A model generated the notes under the pieces. The model had not been told where the DNA came from. It did not search any database and saw only the letters and a list, made by a program, of their open reading frames with translations. Below are positions 23,938 to 43,388 of a stretch of 64,000 nucleotides of DNA, in pieces; positions within the stretch are counted from its first letter, which is position 1, and every line of letters begins with the position of its first letter. Source of the DNA: Bacillus sp. FSL H8-0547 (GTDB taxonomy: Bacteria > Bacillota > Bacilli > Bacillales > Bacillaceae); assembly GCA_038002745.1 (NCBI GenBank), contig JBBODD010000001.1:3224001-3288000 (forward strand), read 5' to 3'. A program made the position numbers and the translations under genes.

Positions 23938-23981
23938 TTTGAGAAGTGGGAGGCCAGCAGGGTTCTTTTGCAGATGTTAGA

Positions 23982-24206
23982 AAGTCCGGAAAGTGTTCTA
24001 AATGTGTTATAACAACACTTTGCAGTGACCAGAGAGCCCGGAAAGAGTTCTAACCTGGCTTTAGCAACATTTTGCAGAGGCCAGAAAGCCCAGGAAGTGT
24101 TCTAATCTGGCTTTAACAACATTTTGCAATGGACAAAGAGCCCGGAAAGTGCTCTAACCTGGCTTTAACAACACTTTGCAGAGGCCAAAAAGCCAGCAAA
24201 GTGTTC
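23982..24206. repeat. 52-bp tandem array 1 (about 4.3 copies)
   Basis: Units begin at 23982, 24034, 24086, 24138 and (partial) 24190, exactly 52 bases apart. A unit reads GAGCCCGGAAAGTGTTCTAA, then CCTGGCTTTAACAACACTTT, then GCAGAGGCCAGA. AAAGTGTT and AACACTTT inside the unit form an inverted repeat, perfect in unit 1 and decayed in the others. No reading frame or spacer variation is seen. The interval 23938-24240 holds nothing else. Confidence 0.9.
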
Positions 24207-39620: not shown

Positions 39621-39658
39621 GAATTTCGGGAACGCGAGTCAATTTATAGTGAGAATCG

Positions 39659-40178
39659 TACCCTCGTAAATCAAGAAACGATGTGGGAGGGTAAGCAAAG
39701 AGGCAAATCCTACCCTCGGAAACCGAGAAACGATGTGGGAGGGTAAGCAAAGAGGCGAATCCTACCCTCGGAAACTGAGAAACGATGTGGGAGGGTAAGC
39801 AAAGAGGCAAATCGTCCCCTCGTAAATCAAGAAACGATGTGGGAGGGTAAGCAAAGAGGCGAATCCTACCCTCGTAAATCAAGAAATGATGTGGGAGGGT
39901 AAGCAAAGTGGCGAATCCTACCCTCGGAAACTGAGAAACGATGTGGGTGGGTAAGCAAATGGATGAATCGTCCCCTCGGAAACCGAGAAACGATGTGGGA
40001 GGGTAAGCAAATGGATGAATCGTCCCCTCGGAAACTGAGAAACGATGTGGGTGGGTAAGCAAATGGATGAATCGTCCCCTCGGAAACTGAGAAACGATGT
40101 GGGTGGGTAAGCAAAGTGGCGAATCGTACCCTCCGAAATTGAGAAACGATCTGCGAGGGTAAGCAAATATATAAACCG
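39659..40178. repeat. 52-bp tandem array 2 (10 copies)
   Basis: Ten units begin at 39659, 39711, 39763, 39815, 39867, 39919, 39971, 40023, 40075 and 40127, each exactly 52 bases. A unit reads TACCCTCGGAAACCGAGAAA, then CGATGTGGGAGGGTAAGCAA, then AGAGGCGAATCC. TACCCTC and GAGGGTA form an inverted repeat in several units. Two alternative cores (CGTAAATCAAG and CGGAAACYGAG) and two tails (AGAGGC-type, ATGGATG-type) are mixed. No promoter is evident. The interval 39621-40218 is otherwise empty. Confidence 0.95.
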
Positions 40179-40486: not shown

Positions 40487-41749
40487 TTATGCACTTGCTT
40501 TCATAACTTCATCCGCTTTAATCCGGTTGTACTGGCCTTCGGATTTTGACATCACAATGGCAGCGAGTGTATTGCCGACAAGGTTGACGACTGTACGGGC
40601 CATATCCATGATGCGGTCAACACCTGCAATGAAGGCAAGTCCTTCTGCAGGAATACCAATCGTTCCGAGAGTGGCAAGCAGAACGACAAAGGATGTTCCA
40701 GGAACGGCAGCCATCCCTTTAGACGTAACCATCAAGACTAAGATCAGCGTTAATTGCTGAACGATCGTTAATTCAATGCCGTAGACCTGTGCGAGGAACA
40801 AGGCAGCGATGGCCTGATAAAGCACTGATCCGTCAAGGTTAAAAGTGTATCCGATCGGAACGACGAAAGACACAATTCCTTTAGGGCATCCCATTTTTTC
40901 AAGCTTTTCCATGATGCGGGGAAGGACGGTTTCAGAGCTTGACGTACTAAATGCAAGCAGCAGCTCGTCCTTAATGTAGCGCAGCAGCATAAAGATATTG
41001 ACGCCCGCCCATTTTGCCACTGCACCCAGCACGACAATCAGGAAGAAAATCAGTGCAGCGTATACTAATAGAACCAATTTTCCAAGAGACAGCAGTGAAT
41101 CAATTCCAAATTTCGAAACGGTTACTCCAATCAGGGCAAACACGCCGAGTGGAGCCACTTTCATTACGAGATTTACGACGTGGAACATCGCGTGTGAAAC
41201 ACCGTCAAAGAATTGCAGGACGGGCTTTCCGCGTTCTCCGATGGCTGCTACGCCAAGGCCGAAGAGGACGGAGAAAAAGATGATGGCAAGCATATCGCCT
41301 TCTACGACGGATTTAAAGAAGTTCGTCGGCACGATATGAAGGAACGTTTCGGCAACCGATTTTTCACTTTGCTCCTCAGATGTGTCGACATACTGCTGGA
41401 TATCTGTCTTTTGGGCAGATTCAAGGTCAACACCCTGTCCCGGCTGAAAGACGTTTGCAAGCAATACACCGAGGACAATTGCTACGGTTGTAATGATTTC
41501 AAAATAGAGAATGGTTTTTCCGCCGAGTCTTCCAACGTGTTTTCCATTCCCGGCACCCGCAACTCCAACAATCAGACTGGAGATAACAATCGGAATCACG
41601 ATCATTTTGATCAAACGGAGAAACAAGTCACCAAGCGGCTGCAGCACAGCTGCAAGGCGAGGGTCATTAAACCAGACGACACCAACTAAAATACCTAAAA
41701 TCAAACCAATGAAAATTTGGGAAGCCAGTCCCAAACGAAATTTCTTCAT
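40487..41749 (-). CDS. gltT: Glutamate/aspartate:proton or sodium symporter GltT
   Basis: A 420-residue DAACS (SLC1-type) transporter. Typical stretches are PLGDLFLRLIKMIVIPIV, the serine-rich hairpin AFSTSSSETVLPRIMEKLEK, the NMDGT-like NLDGSVLYQAIAALFLAQ, the hairpin-2 motif KGMAAVPGTSFVVLLATL and DRIMDMARTVVNLVGN. It is closer to B. subtilis GltT than to GltP. The ATG at 41749 has aggaggttcat upstream; the open frame to 41857 covers riboswitch sequence and is not coding. Controlled by a c-di-AMP riboswitch. Confidence 0.92.
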   Translation of the reverse strand: MKKFRLGLASQIFIGLILGILVGVVWFNDPRLAAVLQPLGDLFLRLIKMIVIPIVISSLIVGVAGAGNGKHVGRLGGKTILYFEIITTVAIVLGVLLANVFQPGQGVDLESAQKTDIQQYVDTSEEQSEKSVAETFLHIVPTNFFKSVVEGDMLAIIFFSVLFGLGVAAIGERGKPVLQFFDGVSHAMFHVVNLVMKVAPLGVFALIGVTVSKFGIDSLLSLGKLVLLVYAALIFFLIVVLGAVAKWAGVNIFMLLRYIKDELLLAFSTSSSETVLPRIMEKLEKMGCPKGIVSFVVPIGYTFNLDGSVLYQAIAALFLAQVYGIELTIVQQLTLILVLMVTSKGMAAVPGTSFVVLLATLGTIGIPAEGLAFIAGVDRIMDMARTVVNLVGNTLAAIVMSKSEGQYNRIKADEVMKASA

Positions 41750-41788
41750 AGATGAACCTCCTCTTTGATGTAAGAATTCTGAAAATAC

Positions 41789-41973
41789 AAAAAAAGACCA
41801 ATCTAAAGTAAGAAAGGTCTTTAATACACAATTAAAGTCTTTCTCCCAATAAAGCATACGAGGTTAACTGTCGGATTCGGGATTGAGAGTTCCCTTCCAT
41901 TTACGGATTCACCCCAAGGTAAGAGCCTTACCAAATGCATGATTCCCCCGCTCTGAAAAGATTAAGCTTATTA
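41789..41973 (-). promoter_or_regulatory. Cyclic di-AMP riboswitch (ydaO-yuaA class) upstream of gltT
   Basis: Read leftward the leader has the ydaO-class conserved blocks in order: GGGGGAATC, then GGGGTGAATCCG, GGGAA, and CCCGAATCCGACAGTTAACC followed by TCGTATGC. P1 is AATAAGC (41972-41966) with GCTTTATT. The expression platform is a terminator AAAGACC / GGTCTTTTTTT (41822-41793) with an alternative antiterminator using AGAAAG and CTTTAAT against ATTAAAG and CTTTCT. Binding of c-di-AMP should favour termination. Confidence 0.87.
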
Positions 41974-42009
41974 TGAAGTTTTGTCTGTTTATAAAATCAC
42001 ACAAGATAT

Positions 42010-42039
42010 AATTTACTCTGAATGCAGACAAGTTGTCAA
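42010..42039 (-). promoter_or_regulatory. Promoter of gltT
   Basis: Read leftward: TTGACA (42039-42034), spacer 18, TAAATT (42015-42010). An 8-base inverted repeat CTGAATGC (42018-42025) / GCATTCAG (42053-42060) encloses the -35 and most of the spacer. Confidence 0.65.
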
Positions 42040-42140
42040 TTGTTTTTTACTAGCATTCAGCCTGGACGATACGCTCAGTTGGTACTTCTCATTAGGGTTA
42101 TGGTAAACTTTTAACATAAAAGAGCCTTGAAAGAAGTTGA

Positions 42141-43388
42141 ATGGAAATGAACGGACGAAGCGGTCCAAGAGTGATTCTCCATGTGGATATGAACAGTTTT
42201 TACGCATCAGTTGAGATGGCGTTTGAGCCTGAGCTGAGGGGGAAACCGCTCGCCATTGCCGGAAATGTGGAAGAACGTAAGGGGATTGTTGTCACGTGCA
42301 GTTATGAGGCAAGAGCCAGGGGCGTGAAAACAACCATGCCGTTGTGGCAGGCGAAGCGCCATTGTCCCGAACTGATTGTCAGGAAGCCGAATTTTGACCG
42401 GTACCGGAAGGCATCAAGAGCGATGTTCGACCTGTTAAGAGAATTTACCGAGCTGGTTGAGCCTGTCTCTATTGATGAAGGGTATATGGATTTGACGGAA
42501 TATCTGAAGGAAGGCAATCCGCTTCAAGTGGCAAAAACGATTCAGCAGCGATTGCTTGAAGAGCTGCTTCTGCCATCAAGTATTGGCATTGCCCCGAATA
42601 AGTTCCTTGCCAAGATGGCTTCCAATATGAAAAAGCCACTGGGCATCACCGTCCTCAGAAAACGGGAGCTTCACGAGACACTGTGGCCGCTTCCAGCAGG
42701 CGAGATGCACGGAGTGGGAGAAAAAACGGCAGAAAAACTCCGCACCATTGGCATTCAGACGATCAAAGATCTGGCTGAAGCTGATCCGATTTCATTGAAA
42801 CAGCTCCTGGGCATTAACGGTGAACGGCTGAAAAAAAGGGCAAACGGTATAGACAGCAGGGAAGTCAACCCGGACAGCATCCATGATTTTAAGAGCATTG
42901 GGAATTCTACCACTCTCTCCAAAGATTCAAGTGATGTTCGCGTCCTGTACGATACTCTGAACCGCCTTTCCCAGTCCGTCAGCATGCGGATGAAACGGAA
43001 AGAGGTGCTTGGAACAAAGATCTTTATTACGATCCGCTACTCAGACAGAAGCACATTTACCCGCAGCCGGACAGTCAATAATCCACTTGGTGAAAAGGAA
43101 GAGCTGTACACTCACGCAAAAGAGATTTTTGACAGGCACTGGACGGGAGATCCCGTACGTTTGCTTGGGGTTACGTGCCAGGACCTTGTGCCAAAAGGAG
43201 CTGCCTATAAACAGCTGGATCTGTTTTCTTTTCAGGAGGATGCAAAAAAAGAGCCTCTATTTAAAACGATTGAGGACATTCAGAAAAAATTTGGAGAAAG
43301 TGTCATTAAACGCGGGATGAAAGCGGTCCGCCTGGAAGATGATAATACGGGCGGGACAAGTTTCAATAAAGATTTTTTAAGGGAATGA
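42141..43388 (+). CDS. polY1: Y-family DNA polymerase IV (PolY1, YqjH)
   Basis: A 415-residue DinB-type translesion polymerase. Catalytic acidic residues are in [14 protein letters not shown] and SIDEGYMDL. The palm/fingers (1-180), thumb with helix-hairpin-helix (about 180-250, [10 protein letters not shown]) and little finger (about 255-365) are recognisable. The C-terminal QLDLFSF is a beta-clamp binding motif. ATG 42141 has only a weak ribosome site (aaagaag). Divergent from gltT. Confidence 0.94.

Follow-up and report, generated by a model that had tools for sequence, protein, structure and literature searches.

The gltT locus and its leader

Within the 64-kb window (the whole stretch of Bacillus sp. 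FSL H8-0547 DNA that was analysed), the gltT leader was located on the minus strand between a polymerase IV gene (42141, plus strand) and the carrier gene, and the features observed there are collected in Table 1. A longer open frame from 41857 crosses the expression platform; the ATG at 41749 was preferred as the gltT start because a ribosome binding site is found there and orthologues align from that position. Between msrA and gltT we also observed a 52-bp tandem repeat (39653-40167, 9.9 copies, 90% matches); a further array, likewise of about 52 bp, lies at 23967-24206.

Table 1. Features of the gltT leader and gene, in positions of the window
Feature	Position	Strand	Evidence
Putative promoter TTGACA-18-TAAATT	42010-42039	-	10/12 consensus matches
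c-di-AMP riboswitch aptamer (RF00379)	41838-41978	-	87.5 bits, E 4.7e-19, 52/56 conserved positions
Extended P1 helix, 3' strand (pairs with 41978-41966)	41843-41855	-	fold with aptamer pairs enforced
Antiterminator hairpin GAGAAAG.A.CUUUAAU / AUUAAAG.AC.CUUUCUU	41810-41845	-	best nascent fold, -10.4 kcal/mol
Intrinsic terminator AAAGACC...GGUCUUU plus T-run	41789-41822	-	hairpin plus T-run; folds
Ribosome binding site AGGAGG, 7 nt before ATG	41757-41762	-	sequence
gltT, 420-aa SDF-family (DAACS) glutamate/aspartate symporter	40487-41749	-	PF00375, 439.4 bits; orthology

The carrier is 79% identical over 419 residues to an orthologue from B. spizizenii, which we take to be gltT. Its motifs include NLDGS and DRIMDMARTVVN, the second of which retains the Asp and Arg that contact the amino group and side chain in GltPh, and the solved structures matching it best are aspartate and glutamate transporters. 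The best NCBIfam model was GltP, at 568.2 bits below its cut-off of 638; since the B. spizizenii orthologue also fell short (554.4 bits), this equivalog model is no test for Bacillus GltT. The DctA model scored 449.8 bits, likewise below its cut-off (513). The gltT product is predicted to transport glutamate/aspartate. The gene name given in the initial annotation is right by orthology, and the naming of the B. spizizenii gene agrees with where gltT (BSU10220) maps in B. subtilis, at ~1.098 Mb (PMC4448311). The genome is that of a Metabacillus near M. indicus, whose strain LMG 22858 has the most similar orthologue from a named species (99%), and in a quick tree without bootstrap the protein groups with those of the B. 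subtilis group (node 100).

An Rfam cmscan placed RF00379 over the leader at full length (model positions 1-134), above the curated gathering score of 38 bits, and this was the sole Rfam match at gathering score in the whole window. Four highly conserved (upper-case) consensus positions differ. Of the 26 consensus pairs in which both partners carry letters, 25 are standard. A chance match is ruled out by the E-value. The ydaO-yuaA riboswitch proposed in the initial annotation was therefore recovered by the covariance-model search named there as its test. The span proposed for it (41789-41973) ended at the last T of the terminator run; its other end fell 5 nt inside the aptamer. The promoter-like sequence ends 31 nt upstream of the aptamer and is weak evidence, as the shuffled region yields a mean of 1.5 sites of equal quality. 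Three diadenylate cyclase (DAC, PF02457) domain matches over cut-off were found in the genome, so the host can make c-di-AMP, and one DarA-type receptor is encoded.

Expression platform

Behind the aptamer, a terminator and a competing hairpin were observed both in the sequence and in predicted folds, bearing out the suggested terminator/antiterminator pair. The terminator joins AAAGACC (41822-41816) to GGUCUUU (41799-41793), with the T-run extending to 41789; the antiterminator joins 41845-41839 and 41837-41831 to 41816-41810 and 41825-41819. Both structures need 41822-41819, 41816 and the upper terminator stem (41813-41811), and the antiterminator also shares the final 3 nt of the P1 3' strand. 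A simple terminator scan limited to loops of 3-8 did not list this terminator; we call it one because of its hairpin plus T-run and because this feature is present in 8/8 gltT leaders, the window's included, when the tail is kept unpaired.

Before the terminator 3' arm is made, the best fold of the nascent transcript is the antiterminator (Table 1). Once the aptamer pairs are imposed, P1, extended through GGGAG, and the terminator together make up the best fold (-35.0 kcal/mol, against -30.1 kcal/mol for the aptamer core held together with the antiterminator). The platform alone is nearly level, at -12.2 kcal/mol for the antiterminator fold and -11.7 kcal/mol for the terminator with its tail blocked. 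Compared with shuffles, the 86-nt platform folds only mildly better (z -1.64; 15/200 equally good). The unconstrained equilibrium fold of aptamer plus platform favours the terminator without ligand (-48.5 kcal/mol, versus -42.2 kcal/mol with the antiterminator enforced), and switching therefore depends on co-transcriptional order. Folding alone is no proof of switching at this leader; ligand-dependent switching would rest on folding order and on analogy with the B. thuringiensis kdp riboswitch.

Conservation of the switch before gltT orthologues

The best 80 of 128 relatives of the locus were taken, and the RF00379 scan was applied to the 31 from Bacillales, leaving aside 49 that were at most 43% identical. 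The survey of gltT leaders suggested by the initial annotation revealed a conserved association, with RF00379 before gltT in 7 of these 31 orthologues, from Metabacillus, Priestia and Rossellomorea (M. indicus, M. idriensis, strain F-D2, P. megaterium, P. flexa, P. aryabhattai and R. marisflavi); three of the seven genomes recur as G004, G006 and G001 in the wider sample below. None of the 24 orthologues from the B. subtilis group, the B. pumilus group and Aneurinibacillus carried a match; a repeat search relaxed to E 0.5 covered 8 of them, and the remaining 16 were scanned at gathering score only. On the strength of those 8 loci, a degenerate switch in B. subtilis-group and Aneurinibacillus leaders was rejected.

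Mean column identity among switch-bearing leaders was 78%, while aptamer and terminator persist. Pair counting gave no terminator covariation beyond shuffles (7 distinct rows, with P. flexa shifted by one column); cells of the terminator alignment were paired at 85.7%, versus at most 64.3% when slid. Because its register differs from species to species, the antiterminator was assessed through folding alone; it was predicted in the nascent transcript of 6/8 gltT leaders, with another fold in P. megaterium and P. flexa. In the same quick tree, B. subtilis-group GltT is sister to the switch-bearing proteins, whose grouping as one has modest support (82); its branching does not tell a gain of the switch from its loss in the B. 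subtilis group.

Other c-di-AMP riboswitches in the genome

Six RF00379 matches were observed in this genome, including that of gltT. Their targets are two SDF carriers, the second being of the NMDGT type, ktrAB (a TrkA/TrkH pair), the kdp region with two switches, and a second, type I, glutamine synthetase. The glutamine synthetase paralogue (505 bits, cut-off 429) is followed by a BcaP-type permease, and this locus lies at L007 4547-6122 (-) (G000:C1:2424546-2426121; RF00379 at 102 bits). The same pairing was found in G004, G008 and G024, with two switches in tandem in G008 and G024.

The two kdp switches each precede a short frame, of 129 and 127 aa (L007 7592-7981 and 8348-8731, +), ahead of KdpA, with kdpB and kdpC read from frames. 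Neither short frame has a Pfam or NCBIfam match, and relatives of both occur in other genomes. We also observed a KdpD of 383 aa with sensor and Usp domains and no kinase part (L007 14102-15686, +), followed by a frame that resembles the CBS protein of relatives. B. thuringiensis likewise has a truncated kdpD (PMC6488665).

RF00379 targets across 60 genomes

We extended the count to 60 genomes (this one included; 7 from the genus, a further 29 from the family and 24 from the order), using stricter filters that may lose weak matches. A total of 132 RF00379 matches were listed in 52 of the 60, of which 131 were over cut-off and one below. As the target of each we took the first downstream frame with 75 codons or more; frames were grouped by BLAST and tandem switches counted singly. 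SDF carriers formed the largest single target class, with 31 of the 132 switches in 27 genomes, followed by TrkA-type proteins (26), a KimA-like permease (23), KdpA (11, in 9 genomes) and TrkH (10). The remainder comprised a frame of about 128 aa (8, in 6 genomes), glutamine synthetase (7, in 5 genomes, one a remnant), a CBS protein (5) and others (11). The TrkA, KimA-like, KdpA, TrkH and CBS labels stem from one representative each; Pfam assigns the KimA-like group to AA_permease_2, and we presume it to be KimA. Potassium genes together still make up the majority, and the counts are not independent events because the genomes are related.

The SDF-linked switches lie 75-219 nt before the SDF match, and 31 were observed where about 0.04 were expected by chance; these coordinate links used the best 126 of 229 SDF matches, and a gene-by-gene count gave the same 31. 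They fall into three subfamilies, the GltT type, the NMDGT type and a group from G016, G033, G035 and G043, and well-supported branches of the quick tree force at least 4 label changes. In 27 of the 31 leaders the hairpin plus T-run reached -8 kcal/mol or better; the four that fell short, those of G016, G033, G035 and G043, did no better than shuffles. The gltT leader terminators of G001 and G004 were equalled by 1 of 20 shuffles, and the SDF-linked match of G007 is weak (51 bits) and on inspection lacks the conserved CCUCG block.

Several arrangements were observed besides. In G005 (L173 8887-9546, +), RF00379 precedes a frame of 130 aa, apparently a remnant, whose resemblance to the switch-linked glutamine synthetase is confined to the N-terminal part of that enzyme. 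Three aptamers in a row stand before kdpA at G005:C1:3357947-3358515 (-) and G002:C1:4401795-4402369 (-), with a 128-aa frame between them and kdpA in G005. At G029:C1:930613-931646, two divergent switches lie within about 1 kb, one before a frame of the 128-aa group and the other without a clear gene within 890 nt.

Discussion

Our analysis points, with a probability of about 0.86, to a ydaO/yuaA-class c-di-AMP riboswitch acting on gltT by transcription termination as an OFF switch, bringing potassium and glutamate uptake under one signal. When potassium is sufficient and c-di-AMP high, the aptamer would close and the extended P1 would occupy the tail GGGAG, hindering the antiterminator; the terminator would then form and keep gltT off. 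At low potassium and low c-di-AMP, the tail would instead pair with the terminator's 5' portion, and transcription of gltT would proceed alongside that of ktrAB, kdp and the second SDF carrier, so that potassium and its main counter-anion are taken up under one signal. We infer ligand binding, the OFF direction, the transport substrate and this physiological purpose at gltT. The arrangement of P1 tail, antiterminator and terminator is that of an OFF switch, and the direction is likely the same by analogy to B. thuringiensis kdp.

Three other readings were weighed. That nitrogen supply, through GlnR/TnrA, is the main signal at gltT and the riboswitch a minor layer appears unlikely: with TGTNAN7TNACA taken as the GlnR/TnrA motif, no site at one mismatch or fewer was found within 41750-42140, and the two nearest matches lie at 41193, inside gltT, and at 42433, inside the polymerase IV gene. 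This reading draws on the listing of gltT of various Bacillaceae as GlnR-associated (PMC3412718). The aptamer might also be an ON switch, or bind c-di-AMP too weakly to matter, such that gltT is not co-induced with potassium uptake. The four deviating aptamer positions, an inferred direction and equilibrium folds that do not switch by themselves speak for this; we hold it very improbable, as a terminator behind the aptamer and a P1 tail overlapping the antiterminator form the layout of known OFF members (PMC6488665). Moreover, the element is retained in Priestia and Rossellomorea, which is not expected of a dead switch. A carrier of C4-dicarboxylates or another substrate, with no counter-ion link, can be given next to no weight against the 79% identity to the B. 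spizizenii protein and the Asp and Arg kept in DRIMDMARTVVN, even with the GltP and DctA scores both below cut-off.

A termination-type OFF switch, the reading we prefer, has close parallels. The B. subtilis kimA and ktrAB switches share its aptamer class, terminator platform and presumed OFF logic (PMC7857571), while the target here is a glutamate/aspartate symporter and not a potassium transporter. The B. thuringiensis kdpFABC switch is also of the termination type; there c-di-AMP promotes termination, and its fall under potassium limitation leads to read-through (PMC6488665). Its target gene differs from ours, although this genome has switches at its own kdp region too. In Lactococcus lactis, c-di-AMP affects glutamate/aspartate pools together with potassium, as predicted here, but acts through KupB, potassium and GlnPQ activity, whereas at gltT it is predicted to act directly on the mRNA (PMC8092236).

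Part of the physiological rationale first offered for this wiring was that uptake through GltT-type carriers is known to harm cells devoid of c-di-AMP. This does not agree with B. subtilis, in which suppressors hit AimA and never GltT or GltP, and in which a strain without both c-di-AMP and gltT still does not grow with glutamate, as far as the available part of the source goes (PMC7857571). An OFF switch would moreover turn gltT on when c-di-AMP is missing, and the wiring therefore fits joint uptake of potassium and its counter-ion and not protection of such cells. Speaking against the preferred reading, in B. subtilis, whose relatives scanned here have no RF00379 before gltT, the gene is up about two-fold with potassium when glutamate is absent (PMC7857571).

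Amino acid transporters are already listed as ydaO-class targets (PMC7266159, PMC9960051), and over half of the genes of this class in Bacillales and Clostridia seem to be ion, osmoprotectant or amino acid transporters (PMC9960051). The connection of potassium to glutamate homeostasis through c-di-AMP is likewise established (PMC7857571, PMC8092236), and a B. subtilis segment beside gltT figures among the candidates of an entropy-based computer screen (PMC4448311). We did not find a c-di-AMP riboswitch on gltT named in the passages of the literature searched, which did not extend to the original gene tables of the class. Neither the class nor its placement before amino acid transporter genes is thus new, and gltT is a further case; what is added is that SDF carriers are the largest single target class in the sample.

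By these counts (31 for SDF carriers, versus 26 for TrkA-type), this RNA class seems to target SDF carriers in these genomes no less regularly than it does any one type of potassium transporter. A wider reading, which we hold tentatively and at slightly less than even odds, is that the Bacillaceae c-di-AMP riboswitch regulon is a potassium-glutamate module, in which the same RNA class governs potassium import, the uptake of acidic amino acids through several separate SDF subfamilies and, in certain species, a dedicated second glutamine synthetase of type I. If this is true, a single messenger would govern, at the transcript level, the supply of both the cation and its counter-anion. Species with the switch on the transporter gene itself offer a simple test of control of potassium and its counter-anion by one messenger.
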